NCBI RefSeq assembly: GCF_001457835.1
Contig: NZ_LN898230.1
Coordinates: 637,600 to 701,599, forward strand
Length of the DNA: 64,000 nt
From: Fenollaria timonensis
GTDB lineage: Bacteria; Bacillota; Clostridia; Tissierellales; Peptoniphilaceae
Direction of reading: 5' to 3'
Shown: positions 53,362-58,278 of the stretch, one piece after another
How the letters are laid out: each line of letters starts with the position of its first letter
Position numbering within the stretch: position 1 is the stretch's first letter
Translations under genes and position numbers: made by a program
The notes under the pieces: generated by a model
Told to the model about the DNA's origin: nothing
What the model saw: the letters and a program-made list of their open reading frames with translations, nothing else
Databases searched by the model: none

Positions 53362-55491
53362 TTATTGTTCTTCTGATTCAGAATTTTCTATTGCATTTTT
53401 AAATAACGCACCCATATCTTCTGATAAGTCATCATTTTGTACAGGTAATTCTTTTACTTCAGCTTCCTTTATTTCTTTTTCTTCAACTTCAGGTTTTTCT
53501 TCTTCATGAACTTCTTCAGCTGCTGGAGCTTCTTCTTCGTATTCTTGTTCTTCTTCTTCTTCTTCTTCTACTGGTTCTTCAAGTCTTCTCTTAGATACAC
53601 TAACCTTCTTGTCTTCATGAATTTCAGTAATCATAACTTCGAAGCGATCGCCAACTTTTAATACGTCCTTTGGATCATTAACTCTCTTATGAGAAATTTG
53701 TGAAACGTGTAGTAAAGCATCTACGCCTTCCATAATTCTAACGAAAGCGCCGTATGATTCAATATTAACAACTTCTACTTCAACAACATCGCCTTCGTGG
53801 TATTTTTCTGTAAATACTGTCCATGGTTCAGGTACTGTTTGTTTTAATCCAAGTGAAATTCTATTTCTTTCTTTATCTACTGATAAAACTTTAACTTCGA
53901 TTTCTTCACCTTGTTTTAAAACTTCCTTAGGATTTCTAATTCTTCCCCATGTAAGGTCTGTGATGTGAACTAAGCCATCGATTCCGCCTAGGTCAATGAA
54001 AGCACCATAATCAACGATTCTAGCTACTATACCTTTGACTATTTCTCCTTCTTTGATGTTTTCCCAAGCTTCTTCTCTCTTCTTATCAAGCTCTTTCTTT
54101 TCAACAGCTTTTCTAGAGAATACTAATCTTCTTTTATTTATATCAACGTCGATAATTACAACGTCTAGATTTTGTCCAACAAATTCTTCAAGGTTTTCTT
54201 TATATCTAACTGATACTAATGAAGCTGGTATAAATCCTTGGATTCCGTTGTAGTTAACAATCAAGCCACCTTTAGTGACAGATTTAACTTTTACAGAAAC
54301 TACTTCGTCTCTTTCCTTAACTTCTTCAATCTTTTCCCAAACTTCCATTTCTTTCAACTTCTTAGTTGATAGAACTACGTTACCTTCTCCATCGTCAATC
54401 TTAACTACATAAACTTTGATTTTATCGCCTTGTTTATATAGATCCTTTGGATTAACATCTTCTTCAGCTAGGTCTTCTTTTTTGATTATACCGTCGCTTC
54501 TAAAGTTGATGTTAACACTAACATCGTTGTCAGTTACATAAAGAACTTCACCTTCAATGATTTCGCCTCTTGATATTCTCTTGAAAGAATCATCAATAGC
54601 TTTAATCATTTCATCTTTTTTTGTTTCTTTAGCATCCTCCTTTTTCATTGTTTCATCGTGGTTTAAATTTTCCATTACTTTAATTGCCTCCTTAATTATA
54701 TCATCAGGCACCGAAGCACCTGCTGTAATACCAATATTATAATCTGGTTTTATTAAACTCATGTCCAGCTCATGAATATTTTCAAGTAAATATGTTTTAG
54801 GATTAATAGTTTTCGAAATCTCATACAATTTTTTAGTATTTGAACTGAAATTTGATCCAAAGACTAAAACCATATCTACTTTATTTGCAAGCTCCCTAAC
54901 AGCCTTCTGTCTGTTTTCAGTAGCGTTGCATATAGTGTTAAATACAAGTACATCCTCATTATGCTCTTCTAAGCACTTTGACATCTTATCAAATTTATCA
55001 TGAATGAATGTTGATTGTGCAAAGAATGCAATATGATTTAAGCCAATAATTTCTTTAGCTTCATCTAAATCCTTAATGATGATTGCTTCTGTTTTAGAAT
55101 GAGAAACTATAGCTTTTACTTCTGGATGTTCTTTATCACACGCTATAATAACATTATAACCTATATTTGAATATTTTTCCACTAATTCGTGAATATTTTT
55201 TACTTTTATACAAGTTGTATCGCAAATATTTTTATGATTATCCTCTAGGAGCTTAGTATTTTCAATGGTTTCACCATGCGCGCGTATGATTATATTATTT
55301 GAAAATATTTTTTTATAATCATCAATTTTTTTTAGCCCACGTCTAGTAAAATCATCGATAACTGTTTGATTGTGAATTAAGTCACCAACTATCTCCGCTT
55401 CTTTATTTTCTTTTAAAAAATCATTTGCTTTTTTTACGGCCAATCTAACCCCAGAACAAAAGCCGTAGTATTTTGCTAAATATATCTTCAT
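53362..55491 (-). CDS. ispH-rpsA: Fusion: IspH (HMBPP reductase) + ribosomal protein S1-like domains
   Basis: A 709-residue bifunctional protein. Residues 1 to about 280 are IspH/LytB, the last MEP-pathway enzyme making IPP and DMAPP; its iron-sulfur cysteines are in YYGFCSGVR, CDTTC and FNTICNATENR. From about 300 to 630 there are four S1 RNA-binding domains (for example VKGIVARIVDYGAFIDLGGI and VEVVNIESYGAFVRIMEGVD), then an acidic Glu-rich tail of about 75 residues. The same fusion is known in Clostridia. It overlaps plsC as TAATG. The MEP pathway also feeds MiaA, encoded downstream. Confidence 0.95.
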   Translation of the reverse strand: MKIYLAKYYGFCSGVRLAVKKANDFLKENKEAEIVGDLIHNQTVIDDFTRRGLKKIDDYKKIFSNNIIIRAHGETIENTKLLEDNHKNICDTTCIKVKNIHELVEKYSNIGYNVIIACDKEHPEVKAIVSHSKTEAIIIKDLDEAKEIIGLNHIAFFAQSTFIHDKFDKMSKCLEEHNEDVLVFNTICNATENRQKAVRELANKVDMVLVFGSNFSSNTKKLYEISKTINPKTYLLENIHELDMSLIKPDYNIGITAGASVPDDIIKEAIKVMENLNHDETMKKEDAKETKKDEMIKAIDDSFKRISRGEIIEGEVLYVTDNDVSVNINFRSDGIIKKEDLAEEDVNPKDLYKQGDKIKVYVVKIDDGEGNVVLSTKKLKEMEVWEKIEEVKERDEVVSVKVKSVTKGGLIVNYNGIQGFIPASLVSVRYKENLEEFVGQNLDVVIIDVDINKRRLVFSRKAVEKKELDKKREEAWENIKEGEIVKGIVARIVDYGAFIDLGGIDGLVHITDLTWGRIRNPKEVLKQGEEIEVKVLSVDKERNRISLGLKQTVPEPWTVFTEKYHEGDVVEVEVVNIESYGAFVRIMEGVDALLHVSQISHKRVNDPKDVLKVGDRFEVMITEIHEDKKVSVSKRRLEEPVEEEEEEEQEYEEEAPAAEEVHEEEKPEVEEKEIKEAEVKELPVQNDDLSEDMGALFKNAIENSESEEQ

Positions 55492-56039
55492 TATAACGAT
55501 GCTATCCTATCCATTAAGTTTTCGGAGAAATCTCCTTCTAGCTTCTCAAATTCGTCTACATCAATTATTTCACCAAAAGTCATTTTAACTTTAGAAAAAA
55601 TTTTGTAGCTCGATTCAATATGGCAAGGGACGATGTTCGTGCCAGTTCTCTTTGCAATTAAGTGTATTCCATCCTTTGCCTTTGCTGTTCCATCTACATT
55701 TCTAGTGCCTTCTGGAAAGAAAATCAAATTATTGCCATTCTTAAGTGTTCTCATAACATCTTTTATGGCTTTAATATCAGCTTTTTCCCTATCTACTTTT
55801 ATAGCGTTAGATTTATTAAGTATAAACCTTGTAAATGGGTTTTCGTAAAGTTCTTTTTTTGCAAAGAAAGCTATATTTGTACCTAAATTCATTGCTACAA
55901 ATATAGGGTCCCAGTTTGATCTATGGTTTCCTGCGACTATAAAATTTGTATCTTGTTTTAAATTTTCCTTGCCTTTTATATCAAATCTGAATAATATTCT
56001 GCAAATTATTATTCCAACAAATCTAATGACTTTATACAT
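55491..56039 (-). CDS. plsC: 1-acylglycerol-3-phosphate O-acyltransferase (PlsC family)
   Basis: A 182-residue membrane-associated acyltransferase producing phosphatidic acid. Motif I NHRSNWDP (HX4D) near residue 38 and motif III FFPEGTRN near 106 are intact. It is short for the family but has all catalytic motifs. TAATG overlaps link it to both neighbours, the aroH-cmk fusion upstream and ispH-rpsA downstream. Confidence 0.92.
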   Translation of the reverse strand: MYKVIRFVGIIICRILFRFDIKGKENLKQDTNFIVAGNHRSNWDPIFVAMNLGTNIAFFAKKELYENPFTRFILNKSNAIKVDREKADIKAIKDVMRTLKNGNNLIFFPEGTRNVDGTAKAKDGIHLIAKRTGTNIVPCHIESSYKIFSKVKMTFGEIIDVDEFEKLEGDFSENLMDRIASL

Positions 56040-57037
56040 TATTTATCTCCATTTATATAAGAAAGCATAAGCTCAACTGTTTCTTCGATGTTCTTATCAT
56101 CTGTGTTAACTTCGATAGCATCACTTGCTTTTACTAGTGGATCTACTTCTCTATGTGAGTCGTAGTCATCTCTACGGATAAGATCCTTTTTGATATCATC
56201 AAAATTAACTTCTAAACCTTTTTCCAAGTATTCTTTGTATCTTCTTTTAGCTCTCACATCAGCTGAAGCTGTTAAGAAGAACTTGTAGTCGGCATCCTTT
56301 AATACAACGGTTCCTATATCACGGCCATCCATGATTACAGATGATTTAGAAGCTATCTCTCTTTGCAAGCTTACTAGTCTTTTTCTTACATCTCTATATT
56401 GACAAACATAGGAAACATTTTTATCGATACGCTCGTTTCTTATCTTGTCATCAACACAAAGCCCATCTAGGAAGATATGGTTTTCAAAATAATCTATCTT
56501 AGTCTTTTCAGCTAAGGCCACAACATCTTCTTCGGCTTTAGGATCAATATTATTGTTTAAAACCTTTAGTGTTAGTGCCCTATACATTGAACCAGTATCT
56601 ACGTAATTAATCTTAAGTTTTTCTGCTAATAGCTTAGCTATTGTGCTTTTGCCAGCACTTGTTGGACCGTCTATAGCCACTTTTATATTATTACTCATAT
56701 ATTTATCCTTTCTTAGAGTTTGCGTTTTTCCTATATATACATCTTTTTTATCTAGATCTTTATTATAAAATACGCTTAGTCTTATAACGCCTTGCATTTG
56801 TCCTTCGACAAGCATTTCGTTTAAGCATATCAAAGCTGTATCATTTAGGCCAATATATCTAGCTGCAAGAGCTGGATATGCCTTGTCTAAGTCTTGAGTT
56901 ACAGTAAATAAAACGCATTTAATCTCTTTTTTATCTAAATTATTTACGTTTATTATCTCTTCTAATAAAATTTTGCTTTGATTAATTATTGAACTTGCCG
57001 TATTTTGAGCATCTACTGCTCCTCTAATTACTACCAC
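56039..57037 (-). CDS. aroH-cmk: Fusion: AroH-type chorismate mutase + cytidylate kinase
   Basis: A 332-residue two-domain protein. Residues 1 to about 112 are AroH-like: Arg5 (VIRGAVDAQ), Cys71 and Glu74 (CLNEML), Arg86 (VIRLSVFY), Tyr101 and Arg109 (VYIGKTQTLR) correspond in type and spacing to the Bacillus subtilis active site, so activity is plausible. From Met114 the protein is (d)CMP kinase (IDGPTSAGKSTIAKLLAEKL, YVDTGSMYRALT, DGRDIGTVV). GTG start with AGGTGAT upstream. Met114 (codon 56696-56698) has AAAGGA 7 bp upstream, so the kinase may also be made alone. Confidence 0.88.
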   Translation of the reverse strand: MVVIRGAVDAQNTASSIINQSKILLEEIINVNNLDKKEIKCVLFTVTQDLDKAYPALAARYIGLNDTALICLNEMLVEGQMQGVIRLSVFYNKDLDKKDVYIGKTQTLRKDKYMSNNIKVAIDGPTSAGKSTIAKLLAEKLKINYVDTGSMYRALTLKVLNNNIDPKAEEDVVALAEKTKIDYFENHIFLDGLCVDDKIRNERIDKNVSYVCQYRDVRKRLVSLQREIASKSSVIMDGRDIGTVVLKDADYKFFLTASADVRAKRRYKEYLEKGLEVNFDDIKKDLIRRDDYDSHREVDPLVKASDAIEVNTDDKNIEETVELMLSYINGDK

Positions 57038-57045
57038 AACATCAC

Positions 57046-58278
57046 CTACTCAATGCTTATTGCTGCTTGATAAGCTGTTGAAAATGCTATTTGTAAATTA
57101 TATCCACCAGTTAAGGCGTTTATATCTAAAACTTCACCAACTATATATAGCTTATTTACTAATTTTGACTCCATAGTCTTAGGATCAATTTCTTTTACAT
57201 TAACTCCGCCTGCAGTGATTATCGCTTCATCTATATCTCTTAATGAGTCGTACTTAAGATTGAAGTGTTTAAGATTATTAATAATGGCAGCTCTTTCAAG
57301 TTTTGTAATATCACATGCTTTTTTATAATAATCTAAGTCAATATTCTTTAGAAATATATTTATTAATTTTTTAGGAAGAAGCTTCTCTAGGACCTTGCCA
57401 ATGGATTTAAGATGTTCTTCTTCAAATAGCATTAGAAGCTTATTATCGAGCTGTTCTTCACTTAGTGCAGGTTTTAAATCTAAATAGATAGTATAATCTT
57501 CATCATCTTTCATATATGAGGATGCGCTCAGTATTATTGGGCCAGATATACCAAAGTGAGTAAAGAGCATCTCTCCAAATTCAGTAAAGATAGTCTTTTT
57601 CTTTTGATTTATGACTTTTACCACAACATTTCTTAGTGATAATCCCATAAGCTCAAGCCTATCCTCTTTACTTAAACTTGTGTTCATTGCAACAAGTGAG
57701 GCCTTTATCGGCTTTATGCAGTGTCCAAACTTTTGCGCAAGTTTATAGCCATCACCATTAGAACCAGTTACTTTATAGCTCATACCACCACAAGCTATTA
57801 CAAGGTTTTTTGCATAATCTACTCCAGAATTGGATACTATTTTAAATAAATCTTCATGTTTTTCTAGATTTTTAACTGTGCATTCATTTTTAAAATTTAT
57901 ATTCAAGTCCTTTATAAGCTTCTTAAACAATTCAATTATTTCCATGGCGTCATCCGATTGAGGGAATACTCTATTGCCTCTTTCAACTTTAGTTTTTATG
58001 CCATTGTCATTAAAAAATTTAATAAGATCATTAGCCGAATAATTATTTAATGAGCTATACATAAATTTTTCGTTGTGTACAATATTTTTAAGTATATTGT
58101 CATTGTCAGAGTAATTACAAATATTGCATCTGCCCTTGCCAGTTATTCTTAGCTTTCTTCCAGGGTATTTATTTTTATCATATAATATTACGCTTTTGCC
58201 GCGTTTAGCACAGTGAACAGCAGTAAAAAGACCTGCAGCTCCTGCACCAACTACAGCTACATCATATACTTTATTCAT
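57046..58278 (-). CDS. HI0933/YhiN family FAD-dependent oxidoreductase
   Basis: A 410-residue flavoprotein of unknown substrate. N-terminal dinucleotide-binding motif VVGAGAAGLFTAVHCAKRGK, the family signature KLRITGKGRCNICNYSD, LVIACGGMSYKVTGSNGDGY and the C-terminal VGEVLDINALTGGYNLQIAFS. It commonly precedes cmk-plsC-ispH in Clostridia. It overlaps the RpiR-type gene as TAATG. Confidence 0.9.
   Translation of the reverse strand: MNKVYDVAVVGAGAAGLFTAVHCAKRGKSVILYDKNKYPGRKLRITGKGRCNICNYSDNDNILKNIVHNEKFMYSSLNNYSANDLIKFFNDNGIKTKVERGNRVFPQSDDAMEIIELFKKLIKDLNINFKNECTVKNLEKHEDLFKIVSNSGVDYAKNLVIACGGMSYKVTGSNGDGYKLAQKFGHCIKPIKASLVAMNTSLSKEDRLELMGLSLRNVVVKVINQKKKTIFTEFGEMLFTHFGISGPIILSASSYMKDDEDYTIYLDLKPALSEEQLDNKLLMLFEEEHLKSIGKVLEKLLPKKLINIFLKNIDLDYYKKACDITKLERAAIINNLKHFNLKYDSLRDIDEAIITAGGVNVKEIDPKTMESKLVNKLYIVGEVLDINALTGGYNLQIAFSTAYQAAISIE

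Follow-up and report, generated by a model that had tools for sequence, protein, structure and literature searches.

A chorismate mutase fused to cytidylate kinase in Fenollaria timonensis and a possible role of its aromatic pathway in RNA modification

Why a cytidylate kinase should carry a chorismate mutase at its N-terminus is the question raised by one gene of Fenollaria timonensis. The gene lies in a window of 64,000 nucleotides (the whole stretch of DNA that was analysed), and it had been described from the letters of that window as a fused gene with an intact AroH-type site, a possible second start for the kinase and no shikimate-pathway gene nearby. The genome holding the window (G000) was compared with two other Fenollaria genomes (G051 and G052), with 130 genomes of the host family (Peptoniphilaceae) and with 249 genomes of the host order (Tissierellales). 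The coordinates, strand and length given in the original prediction were right, and the features of the locus are collected in Table 1.

Table 1. The fused gene, its parts and its neighbours, with positions counted along the window.
Feature	Position	Strand	Details and evidence
Fused AroH-type chorismate mutase and cytidylate kinase	56039..57037	(-)	332 aa, GTG start at 57037, single open frame, stop ending at 56039
Chorismate mutase part, residues 1-113	56699..57037	(-)	CM_1 98.4 bits; site residues kept; dN/dS 0.13 to 0.22
Cytidylate kinase part, from Met114 (ancestral cmk start)	56039..56698	(-)	TIGR00017 236.3 bits, cut-off 135.55
AAAGGA, Shine-Dalgarno-like, 7 bases upstream of internal ATG	56706..56711	(-)	Sequence; pairing energy against background
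HI0933-like flavoprotein, upstream neighbour	57046..58278	(-)	TIGR00275
PlsC-like acyltransferase, downstream neighbour	55491..56039	(-)	Profile match; shared gene order
IspH-ribosomal protein S1 fusion, downstream neighbour	53362..55491	(-)	Profile matches; internal ATG with a strong Shine-Dalgarno sequence at 54675 near the domain joint

The fusion is genuine, the mutase and the kinase sharing one frame in all three Fenollaria genomes examined. Residues 3-111 were matched by CM_1 (98.4 bits, cut-off 27) and residues 120-329 by Cytidylate_kin (243.3 bits, cut-off 26) in Pfam. In NCBIfam the fusion scored over the cut-off of the Cmk equivalog model TIGR00017 (Table 1) and, with 72.3 bits, under the cut-off of 82 of the AroH equivalog model TIGR01796, by which the mutase half is to be named AroH-type and not an AroH equivalog. 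An AlphaFold model of the fusion as a single chain contained two confident domains (mean pLDDT 90.9, pTM 0.68) and a loose stretch at residues 96-114 (pLDDT under 50). CMP kinases and AroH-type mutases were returned for this model by Foldseek, with a TM-score by target length of 0.82-0.84 and 44% identity for the mutase half against PDB 1xho and an E value of 1.4e-24 for the kinase half against 2h92. The closest named match of the fusion was found in Fenollaria massiliensis (90% identity, full length), which is called an obligate anaerobe in the accessible text of PMC4148993.

The copies in the other Fenollaria genomes differ in how well they are preserved in the assemblies. In G052 the frame of the fusion stops early, at codon 254, and the HI0933, RpiR and PlsC neighbours (L026) each match in two or three frames; the early stop together with the broken neighbours suggests an assembly error (indels). 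In F. massiliensis the HI0933-like upstream neighbour (L015 4761-5989) matches in two frames and is frameshifted or misread.

The origin of the fusion can be read from its relatives. aroH and cmk are separate yet touching or overlapping in seven relatives of the host family, with the aroH stop falling between 2 bases ahead of the point where the kinase match begins and 8 bases beyond it, and the neighbours RpiR, HI0933, aroH, cmk, plsC and ispH-S1 are largely common to the family relatives. CM_1 was matched in 13 of the 130 family genomes (12 over the cut-off) and in 78 of the 249 genomes of the order, and 40 of the 65 CM_1 genomes outside the host family were retrieved for locus comparison. 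All 40 loci from these other families had aroH followed by the kinase gene on the same strand; plsC came next in 39 and ispH-S1 was also present in 38, contig ends accounting for the genes not seen. Two further in-frame fusions, of 349 aa (G218) and 337 aa (G135), were contained among the 40. In a tree of the joined mutase and kinase proteins, G218 was grouped with the unfused G230 (support 0.99), Fenollaria with the unfused G061 (support 0.85) and G135 with the unfused G139 (weak support, 0.41); G134 and G136, belonging to the same genus as G135, are both unfused. The stop codon between aroH and cmk has apparently been lost three times in the order, as judged from these sequences, and the Fenollaria fusion arose almost certainly by stop loss between standing neighbours. 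The cmk gene carries a mutase because in the host order it normally lies just behind aroH, and the merger looks like ordinary gene-order drift. It makes a clean case in which a stop lost between packed genes yielded a two-domain enzyme, with unfused relatives extant and the old start kept in frame.

That old start bears on whether the kinase is also made by itself. The internal ATG at 56698, which has AAAGGA 7 bases upstream as originally described, aligns with the cmk start of relatives, and the pairing energy of its Shine-Dalgarno (SD) sequence is -10.1, an identical value in all three Fenollaria genomes. When the window was scanned for in-frame ATGs inside genes, 296 were counted, and an SD as strong as this precedes two of them, 56698 itself and 54675 (SD -11.1). 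The latter falls near residue 273 of the neighbouring IspH-S1 fusion, at the end of the IspH match, with the S1 match starting some 20 residues later. The window's two most strongly SD-preceded internal ATGs thus both stand at joints of fused genes, and ribosomal protein S1 may be made separately from the IspH-S1 gene too. Of 50 genes in the window, 74% have a start SD no stronger than that at 56698, in a comparison that favours the genes by crediting each with the strongest SD among its first three candidate starts. Synonymous conservation was considered as a proof of the internal SD and set aside: codons 109-112 are identical in the three genomes, but a six-codon run at 15-20 is longer.

The same signals can be taken as an unused remnant, with the fused protein alone being made. 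The independent G135 fusion has no junction ATG, where only a TTG lacking a good SD is present; this makes production of the fused form alone seem workable and shows a second start to be dispensable in general. However, the SD at 56698 is strong and does not differ among the three Fenollaria genomes, the independent G218 fusion has a strong SD and an ATG at its junction as well, and the neighbouring IspH-S1 fusion has the same feature. A fused-only product is on this evidence unlikely. The internal kinase start is credible, two products (the fusion and a free kinase) are likely to be formed, and the free kinase is probably also made from the ancestral cmk start surviving inside the frame.

For the mutase half, the six AroH residues listed in the original prediction (Arg5, Cys71, Glu74, Arg86, Tyr101 and Arg109) were all found, and Arg60 in addition. 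Each is conserved in five of five fused sequences and in 43 to 45 of the 45 stand-alone AroH sequences of the order, where the only deviations are gaps and a single Cys71-to-Ser replacement; with the residues kept in close relatives, the claim that the mutase is no relic stands. Lys is present where the RPD motif usually has Pro. Thr74 of Bacillus subtilis AroH is presumably replaced by Ile in the fusion, a numbering match taken in part from hit ranges. Apart from Thr74, the active-site residues of B. subtilis AroH, as named in the accessible part of PMC5458464, all have counterparts in the fusion. The dN/dS ratios of the mutase were 0.13 (G000-G051), 0.22 (G000-G052) and 0.15 (G051-G052), and for the pair G000-G051 the ratios of the kinase, plsC and the mutase were 0.03, 0.08 and 0.13, respectively. 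By these ratios the mutase half is under purifying selection, weaker than that on the kinase or PlsC, and it is very probably catalytically active.

An active mutase would need chorismate, and the oddity originally seen in the absence of shikimate genes came from the 64-kb view only. When the whole genome was searched, aroE, DAHP synthase, aroB, aroA, aroC, aroK and type II dehydroquinase were found as one run at about 299,639-305,394 of the same contig (G000:C8), about 388 kb from the fusion, and the predicted gene set of the shikimate pathway is complete. The puzzle of a mutase on a kinase is partly dissolved, because a complete shikimate operon is present elsewhere in the genome and aroH-cmk is the usual order.

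The enzymes that commonly follow were less easily accounted for. No pheA was found by the genome search, and in the three Fenollaria genomes prephenate dehydratase (PDT), CM_2 (an AroQ-type second mutase), Chorismate_bind (TrpE, PabB, MenF type) and, for TyrA, a PDH_N match over the cut-off were not found. The weak PDH_N match of G000 was rejected as TyrA, being GpsA, and similar weak matches are present in G051 and G052. SBP_bac_3, to which PheC belongs, is absent in G051, and the SBP_bac_3 protein of G000 was rejected as PheC, being on reading by eye a lipoprotein beside ABC transporter genes; G052 has a copy of the domain too. Among the families sought (CM_1, CM_2 and Chorismate_bind for chorismate; PDT, PDH_N and SBP_bac_3 for prephenate), the fusion thus appears as the only recognised chorismate consumer found in Fenollaria, which is the unusual point of this locus, and prephenate is the apparent end point of the pathway.

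The distribution over the family was recorded in a cross-table of over-cut-off matches, which drops G032 (CM_1, 23 bits) and G054 and G064 (PDT, about 19 bits). Of the 130 family genomes, 78 have chorismate synthase, and 70 of those also have a mutase. The eight without a mutase all carry Chorismate_bind (in G050 a copy with stops, in an incomplete genome), and therefore at least one recognised consumer is present in each of the 78. PDT over the cut-off was found in 21 of the 130 genomes, every one with chorismate synthase; 32 genomes of 14 genera have chorismate synthase and a mutase with neither PDT nor Chorismate_bind, and 43 of the 130 have neither chorismate synthase nor a mutase. TyrA was sought in 16 of the 130 genomes, 11 of them (G049 included) among the 32, and PDH_N over the cut-off was found in four of the 16, clearly in G073 and G062 and marginally, taken with their neighbours, in G049 and G050.

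Several irregular genes were recorded in the same family. A mutase without a chorismate synthase match was seen in nine genomes (G057, G063, G066, G073, G090, G091, G092, G094 and G106). The putative chorismate synthase of the six genomes G045-G050 (genus g5) is a single frame of 308-328 aa that matches its profile as two segments, with positions of about 148-181 left out. In G070 (L042 1468-2988) a single protein of 506 aa, encoded immediately behind aroC, combines an AroQ-type mutase, shikimate dehydrogenase and shikimate kinase.

Prephenate is proposed as the wanted product because the three genomes yielded no recognised enzyme leading onward to Phe, Tyr, Trp, folate or quinones, and its users would be RNA hydroxylases of the U32 family. 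According to the accessible part of PMC6599085, hydroxylation of tRNA U34 by TrhP and of 23S rRNA by RlhA both require prephenate, the TrhP route does not depend on oxygen, and in Clostridia a different U32 subfamily, accompanied by trmR, takes the place of TrhP. In G000 there is a protein with 37% identity to E. coli TrhP, in which the U32 domain, the Glu/Cys/Cys motif and the U32 C-terminal domain are all present; with 368.6 bits it falls under the cut-off of 534 of NF011996 (the NCBIfam TrhP equivalog) and is TrhP-like only. The gene directly follows that of a TrmR-like methyltransferase, the best PDB match of which is the tRNA 5-hydroxyuridine methyltransferase 8k1f, and a second, longer U32 protein of G000 has an N-terminal part 36% identical to E. 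coli RlhA over 261 columns. Directly downstream of the TrhP-like gene, a type IV pilus/competence-like gene run (L109 1228-7757, G000:C8) was recognised by eye.

The presence of TrhP was also considered as a marker of prephenate synthesis and does not discriminate: U32 proteins were found in 77 of the 78 genomes with chorismate synthase versus 49 of the 52 without, and the TrhP motif was intact in all 14 sampled genomes without chorismate synthase. Such U32-bearing genomes must get prephenate elsewhere or manage without it. Since ho5U of E. coli is restored by prephenate in the medium, as stated in the accessible part of PMC6599085, uptake is at least possible. The TrhP-like/TrmR-like operon would be the best candidate prephenate sink of Fenollaria, a role weakened by the U32 proteins of relatives without chorismate synthase, and the use of prephenate for RNA hydroxylation is put forward tentatively, at somewhat less than an even balance.

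A role in amino acid synthesis was weighed on the same gene content. The mutase would then serve Phe or Tyr synthesis, either through a next enzyme that escapes recognition or through non-enzymatic conversion of prephenate to phenylpyruvate followed by a general aminotransferase; prephenate is converted to phenylpyruvate without an enzyme in an acid-promoted reaction. The pathway is complete as far as prephenate, and the occurrence of PDT in 21 of the 130 family genomes, each with chorismate synthase, marks the classical route as native to the family. Against this role, however, PDT is missing from the three Fenollaria genomes, no TyrA exceeds the cut-off (the weak G000 match being GpsA), and the PheC-type domain is missing in G051 and represented in G000 by the lipoprotein beside ABC transporter genes, so that amino acid synthesis appears a rather unlikely purpose. 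That the mutase is a mere passenger, left over as the pathway shrank, hardly useful or useless in itself and kept in frame only since it leads into an essential kinase, would agree with its weaker constraint, its score under the AroH equivalog cut-off and the loss of both chorismate synthase and mutase in many relatives (the 43 with neither), but is very improbable with dN/dS values well under 1, site residues intact in three genomes and a chorismate synthase and remaining pathway that are intact and would then have no recognised outlet.

The preferred explanation, in which the mutase is active and prephenate is wanted for RNA, can then be set out as follows. aroH and cmk would have merged in frame through loss of the aroH stop codon, and the product is most likely a bifunctional protein accompanied by the free kinase. 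AroH enzymes form trimers, and three kinases would ride on one trimeric mutase core. Chorismate supplied through the distant shikimate operon would be converted to prephenate by the mutase half and, with prephenate available, the TrhP-like protein and the TrmR-like methyltransferase would convert tRNA U34 to ho5U and mo5U, the RlhA-like protein being perhaps another user. As a whole, with stop-loss fusion, an active mutase, two products and RNA use as a proposal, this explanation is cautiously favoured, at slightly better than an even balance. Its widest form, that Fenollaria and perhaps as many as 32 of the 130 genomes of the family retain a complete shikimate pathway only to supply prephenate for hydroxylation of the wobble base (perhaps also of rRNA), with the amino acid, folate and quinone branches gone and, in Fenollaria, the mutase riding on a kinase, is a more speculative suggestion than RNA use itself. 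The gene content hints that RNA modification, not amino acid synthesis, may be the purpose of the aromatic pathway. If this metabolic reading holds, an amino acid and vitamin pathway would have been retained for RNA modification alone, and the family members with chorismate synthase and a mutase yet without pheA would be explained.

Statements of a chorismate mutase-Cmk fusion, or of prephenate supply for RNA in this sense, were not found in the literature, which was covered mainly at the title and abstract level, and they could still be in print. Among known systems, the pathway of TrhP and TrmR (B. subtilis yrrMNO, E. coli trhP), as presented in the accessible part of PMC6599085, resembles G000 in pairing a TrhP-like with a TrmR-like gene; B. 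subtilis has a pair where the G000 locus has a single TrhP-like gene. The accessible part of PMC1173090 reports gene strings running aroF (EPSP synthase), cmk, rpsA and, apart from these, an aroH operon in Bacillus. These strings are alike in having aromatic genes near cmk and rpsA, some with lytB (ispH) between, and lineage-specific neighbour fusions, whereas an aroH adjoining cmk was not found described in that part of the paper. The AroH-type mutases of Clostridium thermocellum (PDB 1xho) and B. subtilis (1com/2cht) are like the fusion in fold, in sequence over residues 3-111 and in site residues, but the fusion has a C-terminal kinase in place of the usual tail and Lys for Pro in the RPD motif. 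The kinase half is like the (d)CMP kinase Cmk (TIGR00017) by score, but bears a second enzyme as an N-terminal extension. In the bifunctional Cmk proteins of NCBIfam (pantoate--beta-alanine ligase/Cmk, AroA/Cmk and Cmk/Der) Cmk is likewise merged with a neighbour-encoded enzyme; these three models each scored under the cut-off for the fusion, and no chorismate mutase-Cmk model was among the 16 NCBIfam matches listed. In AroA/Cmk the partner is likewise taken from the aromatic pathway, whereas the partner here is chorismate mutase, and as far as the NCBIfam hits show this architecture is new among known Cmk fusions.
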